From the NCBI GenBank assembly GCA_030620975.1, contig JAUXIO010000006.1:1-42880 (forward strand): a stretch of DNA of 42,880 nt. Reading direction: 5' to 3'. Position numbers and translations under genes: made by a program. Source of the DNA: Dehalococcoidia bacterium (lineage in GTDB: Bacteria; Chloroflexota; Dehalococcoidia; GIF9; JAUXIO01). Shown here piece after piece: positions 7,431 through 42,454 of the stretch. Under the pieces are notes generated by a model, which was given only the letters and a program-made list of their open reading frames with translations, had not been told where the DNA came from and did not search any database. Position 1 is the first letter of the stretch, and each line of letters begins with the position of its first letter.

Positions 7431-8416
7431 ATGTAATTTGCTTTGATCTGGAAGGTCCACTATCTCCTCAGGATAACGCCTACGAGCTGATGAAACTTTT
7501 CCCTAATGGCGATAAGGTCTTCGAAGTCATTAGTCGCTATGATGACCTATTAACCTTGGAGGAAAGAGAAGACTATGAACCCGGAGACACCCTGGCCCTC
7601 ATCGCTCCCTTCCTCGTATACCATAAGTTGAAAGAGAGGGACATAATTAGCCTAGCAGAGAAAGCAAACCTGACACCGGGTGCCTTTGAACTCATTTCTC
7701 AAGCTAAATCACGAGGATGGCAAGTTTTTTGTATCAGTACTAGCTACGAGCAATATGCCCTGCGCATTACTCAAAGGCTGGACATCCCCACTCAAAATGT
7801 TAAGTGCACTCGCTTCCCTTTAGACCGATTTTCTCAATTGTTATGTAAAGAGGACTTCGCCCTATTAGAGCAGACAGAGGGGGAAATCTTGGGCATGCGC
7901 CCCTTCAGCGATGATAGCAAAATAAAGAAAAATCTTGACAACTTCTACTGGGAGAAACTACCACAGGGCAAATTGGGCACGATAATAAAACAAGTGAAAC
8001 CAATAGGTGGGCAGCGCAAAGTGGAGGCTTTGGAGCAATTTGCCCAAACTCAAAAGCAACCTTTATCTCGCTGGGTGATAATCGGCGATAGCATCACTGA
8101 CTTCAAGATGCTTCAAAGAGTTAACGAGGCTGGAGGTTTAGCAATCGCCTATAATGCCAACGAGTATGCCCTTCCCTACTCAACTATGGGACTGGCATCC
8201 GTTGACCTCACAGACCTCAGCGAAGTTCTGGAAACCTGGGAGACAGGCAAGCGCCCAGCTACGGAAAAGCTGGTCAGGAGCAAAGAAAAGGTTGGCGGTA
8301 GCGGCGATAGAGCATACTTCCACTGGCTAGCTGATACCAAAAATATTGCTGCTCCCCTTGAAATTCACAAGGGGATCCGCCGCCTAGCCAGAGAAGAAGC
8401 TGCTAAGTTAGGTTAA
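7427..8416 (+). CDS. HAD-superfamily hydrolase-like protein (resembles archaeal COG4030 family)
   Basis: N-terminal FDLEGPLSPQDNAYELM motif I variant, WVIIGDSITDFKML motif IV; ATGA overlap with preceding gene. Confidence 0.7.
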   Translation: MNVICFDLEGPLSPQDNAYELMKLFPNGDKVFEVISRYDDLLTLEEREDYEPGDTLALIAPFLVYHKLKERDIISLAEKANLTPGAFELISQAKSRGWQVFCISTSYEQYALRITQRLDIPTQNVKCTRFPLDRFSQLLCKEDFALLEQTEGEILGMRPFSDDSKIKKNLDNFYWEKLPQGKLGTIIKQVKPIGGQRKVEALEQFAQTQKQPLSRWVIIGDSITDFKMLQRVNEAGGLAIAYNANEYALPYSTMGLASVDLTDLSEVLETWETGKRPATEKLVRSKEKVGGSGDRAYFHWLADTKNIAAPLEIHKGIRRLAREEAAKLG

Positions 8417-8441
8417 TTGATTAACTACCTCGGAGATTATC

Positions 8442-9389
8442 ATGTCTGTGCTTGAAGTAGTCGGATTCGGGGCAATGAATATGGACTACTTGTATCAGGT
8501 AACAAAAATTACCACCGAAGGCGAGCAAGTAGTTGAGGATTTCAAGCTAATGCCAGGCGGGTCAGCCGCCAATACCATCTACAGGTTAGCCAAGCTAAAA
8601 ATAAACACCGGCTTCGTTGGCGTTGTGGGTGAAGATGAAAATGGCAAAGCTCTGCTTGAAGATTTTGAAGTCGTAGGTGTAGATACCAGCCAAATTCAAA
8701 TTAAAAAGAGAGCAAAGACGGGCTCTACCCTGTGTCTTAGTGACAAATCAGGTAAACGCGCACTTTACGTTCTGCCTAACGCCAACAGCCTGCTTAACAC
8801 AAAAGATATAAATTTAGCTTATTTGAAACAGGCTAAGATAGTCCACCTATCTTCTTTTGCAAATGACGAGCAATTTAATGTGCAGATCAACATGGCAAGG
8901 GAATTAACAACATCAATAAAGATTGCCTTTGCTCCGGGAATGCTCTACGCGCTTAAGGGACTGGGAACATTAGCCCCATTAATCAAAAGAACTCATATTC
9001 TCTTTACCAATAAACCAGAAATAGAGCAACTGACCGGTAAGGATTTCAAAGCGGGAGCAAAGGACTGCCTTAGCCAAGGTTGCCATATAATAGTGATTAC
9101 CTTAGGTAAAGGTTCCACCACAAAAAAAGGTGACATCATCACAAGCTATATTTGCAGTGACAGTGAGGAATGTAAGATTAAGGCTGAAGCACCAGCTTCA
9201 AGGTTACAACTAGAAACCACTGGTGCTGGAGATGCTTTCGCCGCCGGTTTTCTGTTCGGCTTCCTCAAGGGAAGGAAACTTGAAGAGTGTGGGCTATTGG
9301 GCAATATCATGGCACAATCCGCCATCGGCAATTTAGGAGCCAGAGAAGGAGCTCTATCCCTGGCTCAAATACCACCAAGATACCGATAG
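8442..9389 (+). CDS. PfkB-family carbohydrate/nucleoside kinase
   Basis: GGSAANTIYRLAKL, GVVGEDENG, C-terminal TTGAGDAFAAGFLFGFLKG motif. Confidence 0.93.
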   Translation: MSVLEVVGFGAMNMDYLYQVTKITTEGEQVVEDFKLMPGGSAANTIYRLAKLKINTGFVGVVGEDENGKALLEDFEVVGVDTSQIQIKKRAKTGSTLCLSDKSGKRALYVLPNANSLLNTKDINLAYLKQAKIVHLSSFANDEQFNVQINMARELTTSIKIAFAPGMLYALKGLGTLAPLIKRTHILFTNKPEIEQLTGKDFKAGAKDCLSQGCHIIVITLGKGSTTKKGDIITSYICSDSEECKIKAEAPASRLQLETTGAGDAFAAGFLFGFLKGRKLEECGLLGNIMAQSAIGNLGAREGALSLAQIPPRYR

Positions 9390-9399
9390 CATGCATCAC

Positions 9400-10767
9400 T
9401 TACGGCCAGTACAATTCTCGTGCCGTTTTCTTCAAATCATCCCTAAAATCAGGGCGGGCAACGACAGTAAGCTCCTCAGCTCTCTCTCGCTGCGACTTCC
9501 CTCTGAGCCGAGCAATGCCATACTCAGTAACTACAATATCGGCTAGCGTATGAGGCACTGTAATCTTTGACCCACATCTCAGCATGGGCACAATGCGAGA
9601 AATAGCTCCATCTTTAGCCGTTGATGGAAAAACGATGATGAATCTTCCGTTTTTAGATAGGTAACTGCCTATAGAAAAAGCAAGTAAGCCTCCGGCACCA
9701 CTAAGCATCTGAGGCCCCATAGACTCGGCATTAACTTGTCCAGTCAAATCTACTTCTAAAGCATTATTAATTGTCACCATGTTATCCAGTGCCCCTATTG
9801 TCCTGGGGTCATGTGTATACTCAATATCACGCAATTCAAACATCGGGTTCATGTGGACAAAGCTCATGTCTTCAGTCGTTCCCCCGCCGATAGCAGTAGC
9901 CACAGCCTTACCTCTATCCAAAGTCTTGTATTTGCCCGTAATCACTCCCGCTCTTACCAATCTTATGATGCCTGCGGGAGTTACCTCAGAATGCCAGCCA
10001 ATATCACATCTATCATCAAGCAAACCGGCGCGAATGAGAGTTTCGCTCGTACTGCCCTGACCAACTTGAATGGTATCGCCATCATGAATCAAAGTGGTAA
10101 CATAAGCACAAATTTGCTTCTGCTCCTCTGTAACCGCCGTCAGTGGTTTCCCATCTAAACGAACCTCACCCGGCTTTCTGCCAGTGTGTGGATGCTCCAC
10201 AAAGTAATCTATTTGCGAAACGTGAACAAAATTATCACCACAAGTTCTAATCAGCCGGTCATTAACTTCAGCTAGAACTAATTTGGCTTTGGCCACCCAG
10301 TGCCTTTTATCATATACTGAAGCACCGAAGCTACAAAAACCATCGCCATCAGGGGGTGAGACTTCAACAAAAAGGACGTCCGCATCCCATTTATCCGGAA
10401 GTTTACCTGTAATACACAAACCGCCTATTACGGCATCTCCCCTCCTTTGGGCCAGGTGATCACTGGCAACTCCTCCAGAAGCAGCAAAGCCAATTTTAAC
10501 CATAAAAGAATCTTCCCACCCCACATCCCACCAGCCAAAATCAACCGTGGGAGAGCCCATAAATATATGTACCCCTCTGAGTTCTTCCTTCCGACTTGCC
10601 AAAGCAAGACACAATGCTAAAGGGTCTCTGCCTATGGGACAAACGACATTATCTCCAGATTTAACCTTCCTAACAGCTTCCTCAGCCGAAATCTTCTTTC
10701 GCTCATACTCCTGTCGCCAATTGGGGTCCAATTTTACTTTCCCTATATATTGCTTTGTCCAATCCAT
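9400..10767 (-). CDS. Acetyl-CoA hydrolase/transferase (Cat1/4-hydroxybutyrate CoA-transferase-like) family protein
   Basis: AEEAVRKVKSGDNV, GWHSEVTPAGI (candidate catalytic Glu), IGGGTTEDMSFVHMNP, VDLTGQVNAESMGPQMLSGAGGLLAF, VTEYGIARLRGKS motifs; paralogous to 38399-39727. Confidence 0.85.
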   Translation of the reverse strand: MDWTKQYIGKVKLDPNWRQEYERKKISAEEAVRKVKSGDNVVCPIGRDPLALCLALASRKEELRGVHIFMGSPTVDFGWWDVGWEDSFMVKIGFAASGGVASDHLAQRRGDAVIGGLCITGKLPDKWDADVLFVEVSPPDGDGFCSFGASVYDKRHWVAKAKLVLAEVNDRLIRTCGDNFVHVSQIDYFVEHPHTGRKPGEVRLDGKPLTAVTEEQKQICAYVTTLIHDGDTIQVGQGSTSETLIRAGLLDDRCDIGWHSEVTPAGIIRLVRAGVITGKYKTLDRGKAVATAIGGGTTEDMSFVHMNPMFELRDIEYTHDPRTIGALDNMVTINNALEVDLTGQVNAESMGPQMLSGAGGLLAFSIGSYLSKNGRFIIVFPSTAKDGAISRIVPMLRCGSKITVPHTLADIVVTEYGIARLRGKSQRERAEELTVVARPDFRDDLKKTARELYWP

Positions 10768-16103: not shown

Positions 16104-17245
16104 TCTCCACCTTGGCGCAGCAAATGGGTCGCAATGATTACTCTTTGTATTTCAGAAACTCCCACGTACACTTCGGCCATCTTGGCATCCCGATACAGCC
16201 GCTCCACGGGCGAAGTTTTTACAAGTCCATACGAGCCGTGGACCTGTATCGCCATACGGGTGACCTCAACGGACATCTGCGAGGCAAATAGTTTAGCTAT
16301 GGCAGATTCACAGCGGATATTTAGCCCTCTATCTCGAAGAAAAGCAACTCTGTAGGTCAACCACCTCGCCGCCTCTATTCTTGACGCCATCTCTGCCAGA
16401 AGCCACTGAATGGTAGGTAGCTCGGCGATAGACTTGCCCAAGGCTTTTCTCTGGCGAGCATAATCAATGGACAGGCCAAGGGCTGCTTGAGCTACACCTA
16501 AACTCTGAGCGGCAACCCCAAGCCTCTCCACACTTATGGCTTCCAAGAGAATCTCAAAGCCATTCCCTTTTTTACCCAGAAGATTCTCCTCGGGCACGGA
16601 AAGGTTATCAAGATATACTTCCGAGGTTCTTAAGCCTCTCAGCCCCAGAGTTTCGTAAGGTTCATGCACTATGAACTCATCAGAGGAGGTATCAGCAATA
16701 AAAGCACTCACTCTACCCGTGTCATCCTTGGCAAAAATGATTGCCAACCGGGCTATCGGCGAAAGTGAAACAAAATTTTTGGTGCCGGTGATGAAATAAT
16801 TCTTGCCCTCAAGCCTTGCCGTGGTGGAAATAGCTCTAGGGTCAGAACCCGTAGCCGGCTCAGTAAACCCAAAGCAACCAAGACACTTGCCCGAAGCTAA
16901 TGGAAAAAGAAACTTCTCCTTCTGCTGTTCATTACCAAAGCGGAAAAGCGACTCCTCGGCGAGGGAATTTACAGCTATGACAGCCCCCGTCACCATTGCA
17001 GCACAACAAAGCTGCTCAATCAGCAAACTATAATTAACATAGCCAGCAGCACCACCACCATACTGATTGGGATAGGGCACCCCAAAATAGCCCAAGCTGG
17101 CCATCTCCTCAATGAGTTCAAGGGGAAATTGCCCAGTGCGGTCAATTTCAGCAGCCCGCGGCTTAATTCGAGCTTCAGCAAATTTCCTGACCGCCGCTTG
17201 AAACATTTTTTCCTGTTTCGTAAATTCGAAATCCACTTGGCCCAC
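16100..17245 (-). CDS. Acyl-CoA dehydrogenase
   Basis: CFGFTEPATGSDPRAISTTA, ARQRKALGKSIAELPTIQW, IQVHGSYGLVKTSPVERLYRDAK motifs; GTGA overlap with tgt. Confidence 0.93.
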   Translation of the reverse strand: MGQVDFEFTKQEKMFQAAVRKFAEARIKPRAAEIDRTGQFPLELIEEMASLGYFGVPYPNQYGGGAAGYVNYSLLIEQLCCAAMVTGAVIAVNSLAEESLFRFGNEQQKEKFLFPLASGKCLGCFGFTEPATGSDPRAISTTARLEGKNYFITGTKNFVSLSPIARLAIIFAKDDTGRVSAFIADTSSDEFIVHEPYETLGLRGLRTSEVYLDNLSVPEENLLGKKGNGFEILLEAISVERLGVAAQSLGVAQAALGLSIDYARQRKALGKSIAELPTIQWLLAEMASRIEAARWLTYRVAFLRDRGLNIRCESAIAKLFASQMSVEVTRMAIQVHGSYGLVKTSPVERLYRDAKMAEVYVGVSEIQRVIIATHLLRQGGE

Positions 17246-17263
17246 TTTCTCCCGAATTAATTG

Positions 17264-19027
17264 CTATGCTTTACGATTAGAATCCCTCCCAACTGCTGCG
17301 CTGGTATAAGCTCCAATAATATCGTGTCGGCGCAATACCCCCAATAATTTCTTGGGTGCTTGGCGATCAACTACGGGAATACGCCCCACATCACGACCGC
17401 CAAACTGCGCCAAGACATCGTGTATATTCTGGTCTGGATAAGCTACGATTGGAGACTTAGTAGCAATATCTCCAGCAGTCAGCTTGGCAGCATCCCGCAA
17501 TGCCGAGCTTTCAACATCTTCTAGGGTAACCACGCCATAAAGACGACCATCTCCATCAATTACTGGAAAACCATGATGACCAGTCTCGGTAAATTTGGTG
17601 CTCAGCTCACTGATAGGCATTTCAGGCGAAACGGTGGGGAAATTTCGCGTCATAACTTCGCTTACGCGAATGGTCCTCATTATATCTGCTCGTAAGTGCT
17701 GCCGAATGTCCACGCCTCGCCGCCGTAGTTTAAGAGTATAGATGCTCTCACGGTTAAGGCTATAAGCAATAAAAGTGCTGATAACCACAGCAATCATCAA
17801 GGGCAAAATAAGAGTATAGTTCCTAGTCATTTCAAAAAGCATGATAATCGCCGTAATGGGAGCCCGCGCCGCCCCTGCGAAGAATGCACCCATAGCCACT
17901 AAAGCATAAGCTCCCGAGGAAGCGGTAATCGCCGGATAAAGTTGGTGTACAACAGTGCCAAAGGCACCACCCAACATCGCGCCAATGAACAAAGAGGGCG
18001 CAAAAACCCCACCGCTACCACCGCTGCCAAGGGTGGCTGAAGTAGCTAACATCTTCAAGACCGCCATTATAAGGAGAGCGCCAAGTCCTATCTGCCCAGC
18101 CAAGGCGTAATCAACACTCATACGGCTCACCCAGCAAGTCTCCCCATAGCCGACCCCAAAGACGTCATAGGAATATAAACCAATGAATCCAACCAGAATG
18201 CCGCCAAAGATAGGCTTCAGATAATCAGGAATTCGCCACGCATTAAAGATATCTTCACATCTATACAACACAAATATAAAGGCTACAGCAGCCAAGCCAC
18301 AAACGATACCCAAGACAAAGTAAGGCACCATCTCCCAGTAGTTAATTACCGCGTATGGAAATATACTAAACGCTGGACTATCCCCCAAAAATCTGAGCGC
18401 GATGGCATCAGCCACAACTGAGCTAATTACCACGGGAGCCAAATTGCGTACCACAAATCTTCTCTGGATCACTTCAAGGGCAAAGAAAACGCCGCCAATT
18501 GGGGCATTGAAGGTGGCCGAGATGCCACCAGCCACTCCACAGAGCATTAGCGTCCTCAGCCAGTCCTCAGGCAGTTTAAGCCATTGTCCTATAGCTGAGC
18601 CCGCTGAGGCACCAATCTGAACAATGGGGCCTTCTCGCCCTGCAGAACCACCGCTGCCAATACATATTGAAGATGCCAATGACTTAACTGCTGCCACTCG
18701 AGGTCGAATGCGACCACCACCAACGGCAAAAGCCTCCATGACCTCGGGAACACCATGCCCCTTGGCCTCCCGAGCGCCGAAATAGACGAGGAGTCCCACC
18801 AGGAGCCCACCCGCGGCTGGCAGAAGAATCACGTAATATTGCCCCATAAAACTCAAAACATCGGCACCACCAAGAAAGAAGGAAGACTGAAAAGTCTTAA
18901 TCAGCCATCTGAAGACCATCGCTCCAAATCCAGCAATAGCCCCGACCACAACCGACAGGCCTATTCCCATAAACATCTCTGAAGAACGTAGTAAGCTTAA
19001 AAAATGCCTTAACCTTGTCATTCTCAA
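17264..19027 (-). CDS. CLC-family chloride channel/transporter with C-terminal CBS pair
   Basis: GHGVPEVM, GSGGSAGREGPIVQIGA, FNAPIGGVFFALE, GGVFAPSLFIGAMLGG motifs; two CBS-like repeats at C-terminus. Confidence 0.95.
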   Translation of the reverse strand: MRMTRLRHFLSLLRSSEMFMGIGLSVVVGAIAGFGAMVFRWLIKTFQSSFFLGGADVLSFMGQYYVILLPAAGGLLVGLLVYFGAREAKGHGVPEVMEAFAVGGGRIRPRVAAVKSLASSICIGSGGSAGREGPIVQIGASAGSAIGQWLKLPEDWLRTLMLCGVAGGISATFNAPIGGVFFALEVIQRRFVVRNLAPVVISSVVADAIALRFLGDSPAFSIFPYAVINYWEMVPYFVLGIVCGLAAVAFIFVLYRCEDIFNAWRIPDYLKPIFGGILVGFIGLYSYDVFGVGYGETCWVSRMSVDYALAGQIGLGALLIMAVLKMLATSATLGSGGSGGVFAPSLFIGAMLGGAFGTVVHQLYPAITASSGAYALVAMGAFFAGAARAPITAIIMLFEMTRNYTLILPLMIAVVISTFIAYSLNRESIYTLKLRRRGVDIRQHLRADIMRTIRVSEVMTRNFPTVSPEMPISELSTKFTETGHHGFPVIDGDGRLYGVVTLEDVESSALRDAAKLTAGDIATKSPIVAYPDQNIHDVLAQFGGRDVGRIPVVDRQAPKKLLGVLRRHDIIGAYTSAAVGRDSNRKA

Positions 19028-32417: not shown

Positions 32418-32548
32418 GTTATCACCTCAATCAGCTTCACGCCCTATTCTAAACTAAACCGGAAGGCTTGTCGACCTATGCCTTTTGCTGATAAAATGCT
32501 ATCACAAAGTCAATTCAAAAACTACAAAGTAACTTTAGGAGGCGGAAA

Positions 32549-34321
32549 GTGCCTAACAAATGGGACGACTTCTTAGACAAGACCTTCACTCTAAAAGAGT
32601 ACGAGGGCGAGAATAAAGTTATCAACTTAAGCGAAGCCATCAAGCGCAATGTGGAGCCGGGTATGACGCTGTATCTGGGGGAGAGAGCTAATGCCCTAAT
32701 CTCTGAGCTCATCAGGCAGTTCTACGGCAGTCAACCCAACTTCACCATGGTTATGCTTTTCGTCATGGAACAGGCCTTAAACCTCGTTCATTGTGGGCTA
32801 GTTAAGAAGATCGTGACCGCCTCCTGTACAGAATTTTTCCCAACTTCAGGGCCAAGCCGCATAATCCGAAACGCCTTCAAAAATAAGACCGTTGAAATCG
32901 AAAACTGGAGTTTGTGTACCCTTAACCAGCAGTTGCTGGCTGGCGCCCTTGATGTGCCATTTATACCCACCAAGTCCATCGGCGGCAGCAGCATGGCTCA
33001 AGAAAACAAAGACTCTTTTTGCCAGCTACCAGACCCCTTCGGAAGCGGCAAACAGGTCAACTTGATGAAAGCGCTTAAGCCGGATATTGCCTTAATCCAT
33101 GGTTGGGCGGCCGACCCCGCGGGTAACACAATCGTGGCTCCCTGTGCAATTGGTGGTGAATATAGCCACGGAGCAAAAGCGAGCAAAAACGGTGTAATAG
33201 TAAGCGTGGAGCAAATCGTATCTACACAATTTATCAGAGAACATTCAGCCTTGGTTGGTATTCCAGCGGGCATAGTAAATTCAGTTTCACTGATACCATT
33301 TGGAGCACATCCCCACGGAATGGTAACCGATTACGGTGTAAAGGAATTTCAGCCCTATGCCGATGATTATGAGTTCACAAGAGAGCGCAGGCAAGCCTCT
33401 CGAGAGCCCCAAAACATGGACAATTGGATAAAAAATTGGGTGCTAGACTGCCCCACTCACAATGATTACTTACAAAAATTGGGCAACGACAAAATTTCAT
33501 TTCTTAAAGAAAAGGGAAATAAAAAGGACTGGAGAGATAACTTAGATATTAACGCTATATCTTACAGCCCCGAATATAATTCGCGGGAGATGATGGTTAT
33601 CGCCGCAGCAAGAAAAACAAAAGAGCTAATCTTAAAGAACAGTTATGATGGCGTACTCTGCGGTATAGGCACTTCGGGTTTGCCGGGATGGGTAGCTTAC
33701 TACGACTTAAGAAAGGAGAACTATGATGTTAATCTCTGGATCGGCTCAGGGATTTACGGATTCTCACCCTCCCCTGGCGACCCCCAACTGTGCAGCTTGC
33801 CCACAATAATGAGCGCCCGAATGCTAACCAACGGCTTAAACGCCTATGGTATATTCGTTGGCGGCAGCCACAAGGGAAAGTACATGAGTATTCTATCCGC
33901 AGCACAAGTTGACCAGCATGGCAATCTCAACTCCACAAAAACCTCGGAAACCTCGTATGTCATTGGCTCTGGCGGCGGTAATGACGCCAGTAATGCCAGC
34001 GAGGTACTAGTAGTGATCCCGCAATCGGCAAACCGCTTTGTGCCCCAGGTCTCCTACATTACTTGCCCCGGAGACAATATGACGGTGATAGTATCTGACA
34101 TGGGCATTCTTGAAAGGATAAACGGCGAATTTATCCTCACAACTTATTTCCCAAATCCCAAAATTCCCAATTCACAGGATATAATTAAACAAATACGCGA
34201 GAACTGCGGCTGGGAGCTTAAAATATCACCACAAGTTACAGAGGCACCATCACCTTCTCTAGAAGAGCTGGTTATGCTCAGGGCCTTTGATCCCCAAGGT
34301 TATTTCATTGGCGGCGATTAG
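32549..34321 (+). CDS. Single-chain alpha/beta CoA-transferase-fold protein (GctA/GctB- or IpdAB-like) lacking the canonical catalytic Glu
   Basis: N-half: IKRNVEPGMTLYLGERAN, NQQLLAGALDVPFIPTKS, MKALKPDIALIHGWAADPAGNTI (alpha). C-half: REMMVIAAARKT...DGVLCGIGTSGLPGWVAYY...NLWIGSGIYGFSPSP (beta). GTG start with AGGAGG SD. Confidence 0.8.
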   Translation: MPNKWDDFLDKTFTLKEYEGENKVINLSEAIKRNVEPGMTLYLGERANALISELIRQFYGSQPNFTMVMLFVMEQALNLVHCGLVKKIVTASCTEFFPTSGPSRIIRNAFKNKTVEIENWSLCTLNQQLLAGALDVPFIPTKSIGGSSMAQENKDSFCQLPDPFGSGKQVNLMKALKPDIALIHGWAADPAGNTIVAPCAIGGEYSHGAKASKNGVIVSVEQIVSTQFIREHSALVGIPAGIVNSVSLIPFGAHPHGMVTDYGVKEFQPYADDYEFTRERRQASREPQNMDNWIKNWVLDCPTHNDYLQKLGNDKISFLKEKGNKKDWRDNLDINAISYSPEYNSREMMVIAAARKTKELILKNSYDGVLCGIGTSGLPGWVAYYDLRKENYDVNLWIGSGIYGFSPSPGDPQLCSLPTIMSARMLTNGLNAYGIFVGGSHKGKYMSILSAAQVDQHGNLNSTKTSETSYVIGSGGGNDASNASEVLVVIPQSANRFVPQVSYITCPGDNMTVIVSDMGILERINGEFILTTYFPNPKIPNSQDIIKQIRENCGWELKISPQVTEAPSPSLEELVMLRAFDPQGYFIGGD

Positions 34322-36738: not shown

Positions 36739-38346
36739 ATGCCAGTCATAAAGTCGCGAATCAAGGTAGATAGTGATAAGTTCAAAGATAATAAAGCTTA
36801 TTATCAAACTCTAGTTAAGCAATTAGAGGAACGCGTCGAGCAAGCAAAGGTAGGCGGCTCTGAGCGGGCTAGAACGCTACATAAGGAAAGAGGCAGACTC
36901 TTCGTCAGGGAACGCATAGAGAAAGTTCTGGACCCGGGTAGCTTTTTCTTAGAATTTAACCCTCTGGCAGCTTGGGATATGTATGATAATGAAGTTCCCT
37001 GTGCTGGAATCGTCACTGGCATAGGAATTGTCAGCGGCAAAGAATGTATGCTCATCGCCAATGACCCCACGGTTAAGGGTGGAACATACCACCCTATGAC
37101 GGTTAAAAAGCACGTGCGAGCTCAAGAGATCGCACAAGAAAATCGCCTCCCCACCATATACCTCACCGATTCTGGCGGCGCTTTCCTACCACTACAAGAA
37201 GATGTCTTCCCAGACCATTATCACTTTGGTCGTTTCTTCTACAATCAGGCGCAAATGTCCGCGATGGGAATTCCCCAGATTTGCTTGGTTTTTGGTTTAT
37301 GTACTGCTGGTGGAGCTTACGTCCCAGCCATGTCAGATGATGTGGTACAAGTAAAGAAGTGGGGCTGCATCTTCATTGGCGGTCCGCCTATGGTCAAAGC
37401 GGCCACCGGTGAAGATATAGATGCCGAAGCTCTCGGCGGCCCTGATGTCCACTGCCGAATTTCAGGGGTTTCTGATTATTACGCTAGGGATGATGCCCAC
37501 GCCTGTGAGATTTGCCGAGACATCGTCGCCCACCTCAATTCAGTCAAACACAACCCGCTTGAGATGCAAGCTCCCGAAGAACCTGCTTATGACCCCGAGG
37601 AAATTTACGGAATTATTAACAAAAAACCACAGGAATTCTTTGACATGCGCGAAATTATAGCTCGCACCGTTGATGGCAGCCGATTTGACGAATTCAAAGC
37701 CCTTTACGGAACGACTCTTATCACCGGTTTTGCCCACATTAATGGCTACCCTGTAGGAATCTTGGGCAATAATGGGATACTTTTCCCAGACTGTGCCGTT
37801 AAAGGTGCCCATTTCATTGAGCGCTGCTGTCAGCGCCACATTCCTTTACTCTACATGCATAATGTTATGGGGTTCTCAGTAGGTAGCAAGGCGGAGCGCG
37901 AGGGCATACCCAAGCACGGTGCCAAGCTGGTTATGACTACGGCAAATGCAGCAGTCCCCAAGTTTACCGTCTTCGTTAGCGGTTCCATCGGAGCCGGAAA
38001 CTATGGCATGTGCGGTCGAGGTTATCAAGGACGCTTGCTATTTGTATATCCCAGTAGCTATTGCTCAGTTATGGGTGGTCAGGTAGCAGCGGGTATACTC
38101 ACCAGGATAAAAACAGATGCTCTAAAAAGAGCGGGCAAAACTGCTACTAAAGAGGAGCTGGATAAGTTAGCACAGGAAACCAGGGAAAAGTATGATTATA
38201 CCGCCGGCCCCTATTTCTCTACCGCCCACCTTTATGATGATGGCATCATTGACCCGGTTGAAACTCGCCAATATCTTACTGCTGGCATATCAGCTTCTGT
38301 AAATGCACCGATTCCGGACACCAAATTCGGCGTTATCCGCTTGTAA
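36739..38346 (+). CDS. Acyl-CoA carboxylase beta subunit (carboxyltransferase; MccB-like)
   Basis: ERARTLHKERGRLFVRERIEKVLDPGSFF, LTDSGGAFLPLQEDVFPDHYHFGRFFYNQAQMSAMGIPQI, GLCTAGGAYVPAMSDD, GPPMVKAATGEDIDAEALGG; SD AAAGGAGG. Confidence 0.93.
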   Translation: MPVIKSRIKVDSDKFKDNKAYYQTLVKQLEERVEQAKVGGSERARTLHKERGRLFVRERIEKVLDPGSFFLEFNPLAAWDMYDNEVPCAGIVTGIGIVSGKECMLIANDPTVKGGTYHPMTVKKHVRAQEIAQENRLPTIYLTDSGGAFLPLQEDVFPDHYHFGRFFYNQAQMSAMGIPQICLVFGLCTAGGAYVPAMSDDVVQVKKWGCIFIGGPPMVKAATGEDIDAEALGGPDVHCRISGVSDYYARDDAHACEICRDIVAHLNSVKHNPLEMQAPEEPAYDPEEIYGIINKKPQEFFDMREIIARTVDGSRFDEFKALYGTTLITGFAHINGYPVGILGNNGILFPDCAVKGAHFIERCCQRHIPLLYMHNVMGFSVGSKAEREGIPKHGAKLVMTTANAAVPKFTVFVSGSIGAGNYGMCGRGYQGRLLFVYPSSYCSVMGGQVAAGILTRIKTDALKRAGKTATKEELDKLAQETREKYDYTAGPYFSTAHLYDDGIIDPVETRQYLTAGISASVNAPIPDTKFGVIRL

Positions 38347-38398
38347 TGCAGAAAATAATAGAAACTTACAATACGAAGCAACAGGGGGTGAACAACTT

Positions 38399-39727
38399 AT
38401 GGTAGATTGGCAGGAGGAATACAAGAAAAAGTTAGTATCTGCAGAAGAAGCTATCAGCATTATCAAATCTGAGCAGCGGGTGGCTTTTGCTTATGGTGCC
38501 GAGCCCCAGGCTTTAGGACTGGCTCTGTGCTCCAGATTGGGCGACTTAGAGAATGTAAGGCTCGTGGTGCCAGCGCCGGGAAGGGATTTTGGCTGGTATG
38601 ACCCAGGCTGGGAAATGTCCTTTCAGATAGAGGTTGGCTTCATTCTACCCATGGTAAGAAACATGATAGAGGAAAGAAGGGGTGACTACATTATCAGCGG
38701 CTTGGTTTGGGCACAGCCACCTGGCGTAAGACCAAACCCAGATGTACTGCTTATGCAGCTATCAACCCCAGACGACCACGGCTTCTGTGGCTTCGGAAAT
38801 TCCCTCTGGGACAAGAAAGAAGCAGTCAGGGATGCCAAAATGGTCATAGCTGAAGCCAATCCAAGACTAATCCGAACTTACGGCGACAATTTCATCCACA
38901 TGTCAGAGATAGACTATTTTGTGGAGCATATCCCCACTGGGAAAACCCCCGGAGCTACGGACATACTGGGCAGAAAAAGCACCGGACCCGGGGAGGTGGA
39001 AAAGACAATAGCTGAGAGCATCGCCAGCATAATCAATGACGGCGATTGCCTGGAGATCGGCGTCGGCGGTGCTGCTGAATGGCTACCACTAATAGGAGTT
39101 CTGGATAATAAGCATGACCTTGGCTGGCATTCAGAGAATACCCCCAGAGGCATAGCGACTTTAATGCGCAACGGAGTAATCAACAGCAAGCGCAAGCAAA
39201 TTAAAACGGGCATACATGTCGCCACCGCGGTTGGCGGCGGTACCAGGGAGGAAATGGACTGGATCGCCAATAATCCACTGATTGAAGTGCACAGCTCCTT
39301 CTGGGTTCTAAACCCCGCTGTCATCTGTCAGAACGATAATGTGGTGGCTATCAACAGTTGTCTTTCCATAGACCTGACCGGTCAGATTGCCTCTGAGTCT
39401 TTGGGGCCCACCATGCTGAGCGGCACTGGCGGGCAACTAACCTTCGCCATCGGAGCTGCACTATCCAAAGGCGGCCGCAATATTACTTGCTGCCGCTCCA
39501 CGGCAAAAACCAAAGAGGGAACGATCTCACGCATTGTGCCACAATTGCCAGTGGGAACCATCATAACTGTACCCCGCGTGCTGGCTGACATGGTCATTAC
39601 CGAATACGGTATCGCCAGGCTTCGGGGAAAAACTCAGCGAGAGCGAGTTGAAGAACTCATCGCCGTTGCCCATCCCGACTTCCGCGCCGAGCTGAGAAAG
39701 GAAGCACAGAGGCTGTATTGGCCCTAA
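38399..39727 (+). CDS. Acetyl-CoA hydrolase/transferase (Cat1-like) family protein, paralog of 9400-10767
   Basis: AEEAISIIKSEQRV, GWHSENTPRGI, VGGGTREEMDWIANNP, IDLTGQIASESLGPTMLSGTGGQLTFAIGAALSKGG; AGGGGG SD upstream of ATG 38399. Confidence 0.85.
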   Translation: MVDWQEEYKKKLVSAEEAISIIKSEQRVAFAYGAEPQALGLALCSRLGDLENVRLVVPAPGRDFGWYDPGWEMSFQIEVGFILPMVRNMIEERRGDYIISGLVWAQPPGVRPNPDVLLMQLSTPDDHGFCGFGNSLWDKKEAVRDAKMVIAEANPRLIRTYGDNFIHMSEIDYFVEHIPTGKTPGATDILGRKSTGPGEVEKTIAESIASIINDGDCLEIGVGGAAEWLPLIGVLDNKHDLGWHSENTPRGIATLMRNGVINSKRKQIKTGIHVATAVGGGTREEMDWIANNPLIEVHSSFWVLNPAVICQNDNVVAINSCLSIDLTGQIASESLGPTMLSGTGGQLTFAIGAALSKGGRNITCCRSTAKTKEGTISRIVPQLPVGTIITVPRVLADMVITEYGIARLRGKTQRERVEELIAVAHPDFRAELRKEAQRLYWP

Positions 39728-39799
39728 ATCTTCCCAAGGTCAGGGCTCTAGCTTTTTAAATATTAAAAATAATAAAGTAAACTATTAAGGAGGCTGAGA

Positions 39800-39973
39800 A
39801 TGGATAAGGAAAGAAAATGTGCTTGGTGTGGGGAAACAATGTTACCTAAGGTAGACCGCAAGAAAAGCGATTTTGGAGACATAGTAGAGAGAAAATGTTC
39901 TAAGTGTGGCAAAGTGGTGGCGGTTTACCTTGAGTCAGAAGGGGAATTTCTCCCTAAGATGCGCTCATATTGA
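39800..39973 (+). CDS. 57-aa zinc-ribbon protein (not in supplied ORF track)
   Basis: MDKERKCAWCGETMLPKVDRKKSDFGDIVERKCSKCGKVVAVYLESEGEFLPKMRSY; two CxxC knuckles; AAGGAGG SD at 39787-39793. Confidence 0.75.
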   Translation: MDKERKCAWCGETMLPKVDRKKSDFGDIVERKCSKCGKVVAVYLESEGEFLPKMRSY

Positions 39974-40016
39974 ATTCTTGGAAGGATGCCCAAATCACAG
40001 AGAAAAGGAGAACTAA

Positions 40017-41240
40017 ATGGTAGAGAAAACTGAAACCAAAATGGCAGAAACATATATTACCGATGAACGGCTGACAGATTGGGAAAAAAGAATTGGGATG
40101 GATTTGCGCGTTGGCAATATTTACAACCAAAATGTGTCATACGAGGCAATAAGAAATTTTGCCAATGGAATAGGCGATGATAATCCATTATATCGAGACC
40201 CGGAGTATGCCAAGAAGACCAAATTTGGAGCGCTAGTAGCTTCTCCCGCTTGGCCAGGCAGCGTCTTTCCACATTGGGTGCTGCAGGGTTTGCCAGGAGT
40301 TCATGCTGACCACTCAGCTTCAGATTGGGAAAACCTAAAGCCAATATATGTCAACGACAAAATCACTCCAAAGTGCTACTTCGTGGGCTACGATGTAAAA
40401 AGCAGTAAGTTCGCCGGAAAGACTGCGTTTGAATACCAGAGGTTTGAGTACTGGAACCAGAAGAATGAACTAGTGTCCGTGGGACACAATTTGCTCGTAA
40501 GATATGAGAGGCAAACGGCAAAGAAAGCATCATCTGAAGGTAAGGGTAAATATGACGAGTTCCAGTTGCCTCATCCCTGGACCGAGGAAGAACTCAATAA
40601 GGTAGATGAAGATGCCCTGGCTGAGGAGATACGAGGCTCAAAGGTAAGATACTGGGAAGATGTGAAAGTTGGAGATGAGCTGAAGCCAGTGGTCAAAGGC
40701 CCCTTTGGCATGACAGATATAGTTGCTTACTGTGCTGGAGCAGCTCCAGTGCAGCTTGCCGCCCACGGCGTTCAACTTAAATTATATAAGAGGCACCCGG
40801 CGTGGGGCTTCCGGCATTCTGTAAACCATTCATGGGAACCCATCTACGCAGTTCACTACTTGCATGAGGCAGCTTGGGCTGCCGGCGCCCGCTATGCCTA
40901 CGATGTGGGAATTCAGAGGCATTGCTGGTTGGTCAATCTGCTCACTAACTGGATGGGCGACGAAGGCTGGATAAAATCATGCAATGCCCAGTACCGTCAG
41001 TTCGTATATCATTCAGATGTAGTATGGTTCACCGGCAAAGTCATCAAGAAATACGTTGATGAGAACGGGGAATACTGCGTGGATATCGAAACTCACGGCA
41101 TAAATCAGAGAAAAGCTGACACCATACCTGGTACTTCCACGGTAATTCTCCCATCGAGGGAGAAGGGAACCTGGCCCGTAGAGAAGAGATTGCCATCAAA
41201 GGAGTGGCGTGGCACAGGCAAGGGAGTTTACTTCGATTAG
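40017..41240 (+). CDS. MaoC/FAS1-like dehydratase-domain protein (double hot-dog)
   Basis: YEAIRNFANGIGDDNPLYRDPEYAKKTKFGALVASP N-terminal motif; second hot-dog-like half after RYWEDVKVGDELKPVVKGPFGMTDIVAYC. Confidence 0.8.
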   Translation: MVEKTETKMAETYITDERLTDWEKRIGMDLRVGNIYNQNVSYEAIRNFANGIGDDNPLYRDPEYAKKTKFGALVASPAWPGSVFPHWVLQGLPGVHADHSASDWENLKPIYVNDKITPKCYFVGYDVKSSKFAGKTAFEYQRFEYWNQKNELVSVGHNLLVRYERQTAKKASSEGKGKYDEFQLPHPWTEEELNKVDEDALAEEIRGSKVRYWEDVKVGDELKPVVKGPFGMTDIVAYCAGAAPVQLAAHGVQLKLYKRHPAWGFRHSVNHSWEPIYAVHYLHEAAWAAGARYAYDVGIQRHCWLVNLLTNWMGDEGWIKSCNAQYRQFVYHSDVVWFTGKVIKKYVDENGEYCVDIETHGINQRKADTIPGTSTVILPSREKGTWPVEKRLPSKEWRGTGKGVYFD

Positions 41241-41281
41241 TCTTGTCAATGCAGTAGTAAATTTTTAAAGGAGGGAACAGT

Positions 41282-42454
41282 ATGGAGCTTCGAGACATAA
41301 GGGATTTCGGTCTAAGCGAAGACCAAAAAATGGTAAGGCAGATGGCTATAGACTTCGGCGAGAAGGAGATATTGCCGGTCATAGAGGAATATGAAGCCGA
41401 GGGGCGCTACCCCAAAGACATCGTTAACAAGCTGGGTGAACTGGGCTTCCTAGGCCCTTTTGTTCCCCCGGAATATGGCGGCGCCGGCATGGACTTCCTG
41501 AGCTACGGTATAATCTGCGAGACAGTAGCTTATTACGACTGGGTATGCGCTTCAGCAATCTCAGTTCAAATGTCACTTGTGGGTTCCGGAATTCTGCGCT
41601 TCGGTACTGAGGAGCAGAAGCAAGAGTTCCTGGTACCTCTAGCCAGCGGGAAAAAGCAAGCTTCAGGTTCCCTCACTGAACCTAACGCTGGTACTGACCT
41701 AGCTAGCTTAACCACCAGGGCAGTGCGAGATGGTGATGACTATATCCTCAATGGCAATAAGACATACATCTCCCATGCCACCCACGCTGATATACTGCTT
41801 ACCTTAGCCACCACCGACCCAGCACTCAGGCACAAAGGTATCTGTGCCTTCTTGGTAGAAAACCCATCCCCAGGCATCAGCACCAGCAAGCTGCCTATAT
41901 GGGGCATGACCAGGGGTGATACCTGCGATGTGGCTTATGAAAATGTCCGCGTGCCAGCAAAGAATATGCTCCTCGGAGAAAACCGAGGCTGGACAGTCGT
42001 CATGGCAAACCTGGATACGGGAAGATACTCTGTGGCTTGTCGATGTATGGGGCAATCTCAATACTTCGTTGACCAGGCAATTGCCTATGCCAACCAAAGA
42101 GAAACATTTGGGACGTTAATACGCGAATACCAGATGGTCAAGGCAATGATCGCCGATATGGTGGTAAACACAGAGGCAGCCAGGTTGCTGTGCTACCGCG
42201 TTGGTCGTTTGAAGGATGCTGGAGAACAACGCACTGGCTTTGAGGCAGCTCAAGCTAAGCTCTTTGCCAGCGATACTGCAGTTAAGAGTGCCTTAGACTG
42301 CATCCAGATCCACGGCGGTGTTGGTGCGACCAAAGATTACTCCTTTGGACACAAGCTGCTCGAAGCGAAGGTGCTCCAGATCGGCGAGGGCACCAACCAG
42401 ATACAGAGAAGAATGATTGCCGACTACGCTTTAGGGATGCTAAAACAAAAGTAA
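41282..42454 (+). CDS. Acyl-CoA dehydrogenase
   Basis: GSLTEPNAGTDLASLTTRAV, YANQRETFGTLIREYQMVKAMIADM, IQIHGGVGATKDYSFGHKLLEAKVLQIGEGTNQIQRRMIA. Confidence 0.95.
   Translation: MELRDIRDFGLSEDQKMVRQMAIDFGEKEILPVIEEYEAEGRYPKDIVNKLGELGFLGPFVPPEYGGAGMDFLSYGIICETVAYYDWVCASAISVQMSLVGSGILRFGTEEQKQEFLVPLASGKKQASGSLTEPNAGTDLASLTTRAVRDGDDYILNGNKTYISHATHADILLTLATTDPALRHKGICAFLVENPSPGISTSKLPIWGMTRGDTCDVAYENVRVPAKNMLLGENRGWTVVMANLDTGRYSVACRCMGQSQYFVDQAIAYANQRETFGTLIREYQMVKAMIADMVVNTEAARLLCYRVGRLKDAGEQRTGFEAAQAKLFASDTAVKSALDCIQIHGGVGATKDYSFGHKLLEAKVLQIGEGTNQIQRRMIADYALGMLKQK

Follow-up and report, generated by a model that had tools for sequence, protein, structure and literature searches.

The window analyzed here comprises 42,880 nucleotides, the full length of a contig in a 1.02-Mb Dehalococcoidia genome. 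At 32549..34321 on the forward strand it carries one intact frame of 590 amino acids with a GTG start, preceded by a Shine-Dalgarno-like AGGAGG read from the sequence (32537..32542, forward strand, 6 nt 5' of the GTG). Flanked by a glgC-type and a holA-type gene, both on the reverse strand, the gene is on its own, with a ychF-type gene near (these names were read from the translations). Past holA and ychF, 2.4 kb downstream of the gene, starts a run of acyl-CoA genes (window 36739-42454) that encode a carboxyltransferase, a Cat1-like protein, a 407-aa double-hot-dog protein, and an acyl-CoA dehydrogenase. Genes for Cat1-like CoA-transferases/hydrolases are found at 9400-10767 (-) and 38303-39727 (+) of the window, and both keep the HSE glutamate. 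A search with defence-system models gave no match. The gene under study is the sole full-length homologue in its genome, where one weak second match was also seen (E 3e-4).

The frame encodes a fused GctA-GctB-like protein. Among proteins of solved structure, GctAB of Acidaminococcus fermentans (PDB 1poi) was nearest in sequence to both halves: phmmer placed GctA on residues 83-320 and GctB on residues 363-508 of the one frame, and a family profile widened these matches to nearly the whole protein. The alpha (GctA-like) half thus covers residues 22-317 (32612..33499, +) and the beta (GctB-like) half covers residues 342-589 (33572..34315, +), the latter also matched by a profile of the beta halves of Gly-form proteins. 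The alpha half scored 148 bits to GctA (1poi_A) versus 65.5 bits to IpdA, and the beta half scored 82.8 bits to GctB (1poi_B) versus 13.8 bits to IpdB; by sequence, the protein is nearer to GCT than to IpdAB. Pfam CoA_trans, the model proposed for a search at the outset, matched residues 26-233 in the first half (E 1e-15). These matches bear out the original prediction that one 590-aa frame holds an alpha and a beta half. An AlphaFold2 model built from 23 sequences had a mean pLDDT of 88 and a pTM of 0.88, and Foldseek with this model returned fused SCOT and YdiF enzymes as well as GctA (rmsd 2.8, TM 0.80 normalised by target). The predicted fold is, with good confidence, of the family I CoA-transferase type, and since its sequence matches both subunits and its fold is theirs, the protein belongs, in fold and sequence, to the GCT group. 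The model was poor at residues 411-440 (pLDDT 54-68), so the geometry that it gives for Gly399 and Tyr433 is tentative.

What sets the protein apart from an ordinary GCT-group enzyme is its active site. The segment NLWIGSGIYGFSPSP lies at 33731..33775 (+), and its GGC codon at 33743..33745 encodes Gly399, both exactly where the original prediction had located them. In the profile alignment Gly399 falls on the glutamate of VESG in GctB, the beta-part residue that forms the acyl anhydride and by which an enzyme of the GCT group is recognized. The motif first used for comparison was of AtoA/SCOT type; VESG of GctB is the nearer reference. A survey of the domain fusion across genomes, as had been proposed, yielded 83 distinct fused proteins with a length of 480 aa or more, from Dehalococcoidia, Desulfobacterota, and other groups; column 399 is Glu in 58 of them, Gly in 25, and no other residue in any. 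The outgroup, six GCT-like pairs with separate subunits, has Glu at the aligned site throughout, and so do all four fused homologues that we examined from plasmids of cultured bacteria. The 25 Gly forms are diverse (pairwise identity, median 43%, minimum 36%), and only 40 of the 590 columns are invariant among them, column 399 being one. Their Gly399 codons are GGC (10), GGG (7), GGT (5), and GGA (3). With Gly in 25 of 83 proteins and all four Gly codons in use, chance or sequencing error is excluded, and four codons at a median identity of 43% indicate that the glycine is old and has been kept. As judged from these alignments, the loss of the catalytic glutamate that had been predicted is real and is not private to the window protein.

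We then compared the alignment columns between the two forms. Those that best separate them are 399 and 433, the second being Tyr433 in the window protein (33845..33847, +). Column 433 is Tyr in 22, His in 2, and Gln in 1 of the Gly forms and Leu in 43, Met in 14, and Arg in 1 of the Glu forms. Gly forms have lost residues that are nearly fixed among Glu forms at positions 94, 103, 377, 415, and 423; Cys553, present in every Gly form, stands in a column of mixed composition in Glu forms. Column comparison of the 25 Gly forms with the 58 Glu forms revealed no newly conserved acidic residue in the Gly group; residues such as D179, H184, D189, N193, D455, N459, N461, and D479 are invariant in Gly forms and common to Glu forms.

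Two places in the alpha half had been put forward as sources of a catalytic acid. The first is VEIENWS, found as described at 32891..32911 (+), whose E118 (codon 32900-32902) occurs in 25/25 Gly forms. Because 54/58 Glu forms keep E118 as well, it is neither diagnostic nor a hallmark of a hydrolase, and a role as stand-in for Glu399 is unsupported. The second is the position of the catalytic glutamate of IpdA, which we take to be Glu105. This residue is marked by the two IpdAB structures, since a Glu-to-Ala change at chain position 117 is the sole difference between 6coj and 6co6 in the aligned stretch. Aligned with 6co6_A and 6coj_A, IpdA Glu105 corresponds without gaps to Leu122 of the window protein (32912..32914, +), and the alignment runs on to a conserved PF motif. 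Across the Gly clade this column holds L, V, S, or I, with one D; the glutamate expected there is not present.

To follow the history of the replacement, we built two trees. In an 89-row tree with the motif columns removed, the 25 Gly rows grouped together as a clade (SH-aLRT, 95), and the Glu rows fell outside it. A more careful 50-row tree had a single Glu/Gly split among the fused proteins (support, 82/71) and a root inside the Gly rows, and an AU test did not reject Gly as one clade (p-AU, 0.43). These trees do not firmly establish the Gly group as monophyletic. One change between Glu and Gly forms among the fused proteins is the best reading, and its direction was likely, though not certainly, from Glu to Gly because the outgroup has Glu.

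The two forms also differ in the genes around them. Class III CoA-transferase genes were found within 6 kb of 13/25 Gly genes versus 4/58 Glu genes (Fisher P = 1e-5). Double-hot-dog hydratase-like genes were found near 5/25 Gly genes versus 0/58 Glu genes (P = 0.002). The genomes counted are not independent of one another, and the flanks differ in length. Where class III enzymes are encoded near a Gly gene, intermolecular CoA transfer could be the task of another enzyme. Single Gly genes have as neighbours methylmalonyl-CoA mutase (locus L170), MeaB (L133), and methylaspartate mutase E (L081); the gene for the nearest relative of the window protein (L129; 58-59% identical) is followed by succinyl-CoA-ligase-like genes. 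Glu genes are often in clusters with ligase, dehydrogenase, MaoC, SDR, OB-fold, and thiolase genes.

Several loci hold more than one gene of interest. Two different Gly-form fused genes share one cluster in L080 (4787-6538 and 12053-13819) and in L094 (3403-5136 and 11057-12829); both clusters encode several class III CoA-transferases and enoyl-CoA hydratases, and that of L094 also encodes a double-hot-dog protein. On one Nitrospinae contig (L072), a Gly form (8049-9824) and a Glu form (16215-18020) lie 6 kb apart. A small DUF3786-like protein is regularly encoded 5' of Glu-form genes, in the order seen in the window genome, as at 8171-8584 of L047 and in the similar loci L046, L048, L086, L091, L134, L140, and L141.

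One neighbourhood is common to both forms. In Dehalococcoidia, an operon encodes a P1-type peptidase (S58), a DUF2520 protein that we take to be ketopantoate reductase (PanG), and the products of panD, panB, and panC. The fused gene directly follows panD at five Gly loci (L033, L036, L037, L038, and L055) and at two Glu loci (L034 and L053). The operon with the fused gene spans 10447-14555 in L033, where it stops at the contig edge, 1-5364 in L034, 6622-12514 in L036, 3755-10220 in L038, and 29-4718 in L055. In L034, L036, and L055 the fused gene is followed by panB, as it is in L038 beyond a gap; the L053 genome has panB next to a fragment of a fused gene (L209). Five other Gly-form genomes, the window's included, have the same operon without the insert. 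In the window genome S58-PanG-PanD-PanB-PanC is complete and uninterrupted on another contig (L204, 2173-6146), and the operon does not explain the window gene. With the slot filled in some genomes and empty in others, the gene has shared this slot, joined it, or left it, and both forms occur there.

Can a protein of this kind still be a CoA-transferase? That 25 of 83 relatives carry Gly suggests that they probably do something other than ordinary CoA transfer, and we favor the reading, with somewhat better than even confidence, that the window protein is a non-transferase acyl-CoA enzyme of the GCT group. It would be a single-chain member of that group, from a subgroup lacking the Glu that forms the enzyme-bound acyl anhydride. 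As the fold keeps its other invariant columns, an acyl-CoA is presumably still bound; with no ping-pong transfer through an anhydride, the protein would perform non-covalent chemistry on one bound acyl-CoA. The most likely reaction would be one that cleaves or rearranges a beta-oxo or dicarboxylic acyl-CoA. If the protein is indeed a non-transferase, then by analogy with known enzymes hydrolytic C-C (retro-Claisen) cleavage, as in IpdAB with a different acid/base, would be the leading candidate at a little under even chance; intramolecular CoA transfer as in ThnP would be a clearly weaker one and decarboxylation as in AibAB weaker again, with the rest left to another reaction. We infer this ranking, with C-C hydrolysis ahead of the other two; we identified no substitute in the window protein for the missing catalytic acid of IpdAB. 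More tentatively, and short of an even chance, a family of single-chain GCT relatives may have exchanged Glu for Gly and gained Tyr433, with a resulting chemistry distinct from that of IpdAB, AibAB, and ThnP, and in some Dehalococcoidia may be part of the operon for pantothenate, the coenzyme A precursor, with Glu and Gly forms in one slot.

That same slot is an argument against a non-transferase. With five Gly genes and two Glu genes directly after panD, both forms could do the same job, and the Gly forms could still be intermolecular CoA-transferases in which another carboxylate or a ternary-complex route replaces Glu399. The full conservation of E118 and other acids in Gly forms would suit such an enzyme, as would the fact that nearly all other conserved columns are common to both forms. 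However, the Gly group has gained no conserved acidic residue, its genes often have class III transferase genes beside them, and the established family I mechanism requires the catalytic Glu (PMC5380842). We consider this explanation unlikely.

Less probable again, and about equal to each other, are two further explanations. If the protein had lost its activity and were a non-catalytic or regulatory CoA-ester-binding protein, the disappearance of the catalytic residue from the whole group and the varied gene contexts would be expected; the long full-length conservation with its invariant columns, the fixed Gly rather than random residues, and the coupled gain of Tyr433 would not. A plain acyl-CoA thioester hydrolase is suggested by GCT itself, which reportedly becomes an acyl-CoA hydrolase when its glutamate is mutated to aspartate, but Gly provides no base at the site, and no replacement base is evident. 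Membership in the IpdAB family proper, as a ring-cleaving hydrolase of steroid-type substrates, is very improbable: the fold group and the Glu-to-Gly replacement are the same, but the bit scores to IpdA and IpdB are the weaker ones, Leu122 stands at the Glu105 position, and the glgC-, holA-, and ychF-type neighbours form no steroid cluster.

The non-transferase reading matters for annotation. Tools label Gly-form proteins as CoA-transferases, and CoA transfer will be assumed in pathway models; should the Gly group carry out another chemistry, that annotation is wrong for a group found in Dehalococcoidia and in other lineages that are mostly metagenomic. A Glu/Gly pair in one family and one operon slot would offer a clean natural comparison of how a CoA-transferase fold becomes another enzyme.

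Compared with GctAB, the window protein is one chain instead of two, has Gly399 where GctAB has its catalytic Glu54, and has Tyr433, whose equivalent position in GctAB is not Tyr. Among the fused Glu-form homologues annotated as CoA-transferases is WP_041813743.1 from plasmid pRHL3 of Rhodococcus jostii RHA1, a full-length homologue that is 34.6% identical to the window protein. It keeps the Glu (AEIG) and has Leu at 433, and its cluster encodes a ligase, a thiolase, an OB-fold protein, an acyl-CoA dehydrogenase, hydratases, and an SDR.

The original prediction had likened the protein to IpdAB (PDB 6co6 and 6coj), a steroid ring-cleaving hydrolase of two chains, whereas the window protein is one chain and its gene has no steroid gene cluster around it. 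The likeness fails in the alpha half, at Leu122, and in sequence affinity, which is to GCT. It holds in the beta half, where IpdB of RHA1 has Gly57 at the transferase Glu site (PMC5380842) and both proteins, which are of one fold group, have Gly for the lost glutamate. Of the two halves of the IpdAB active-site signature, the alignment shows one in the window protein and not the other.

ThnP is an intramolecular CoA-transferase in which the Glu is likewise replaced by Gly (Gly238), with E269 discussed as a possible substitute (PMC11659651), so Gly alone does not mean a hydrolase. Like the window protein, ThnP occurs in an anaerobe; it belongs to the Cat1-like subgroup, whereas the window protein belongs to the GCT group and matched CoA_trans and not the AcetylCoA_hydro models. 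AibAB, a two-chain GCT relative, also has a replaced catalytic Glu: Cys56 of AibB takes its place, and AibA/AibB is a 3-methylglutaconyl-CoA decarboxylase (PMC7756340). Its proton source is Glu72, 16 residues further along; the window protein has Cys415 there, in a column that is not conserved in the Gly group, and thus has Gly399 and an unconserved residue where AibAB has Cys and Glu. Together, Gly238 of ThnP and Cys56 of AibB indicate that loss of the glutamate also accompanies intramolecular CoA transfer and decarboxylation.
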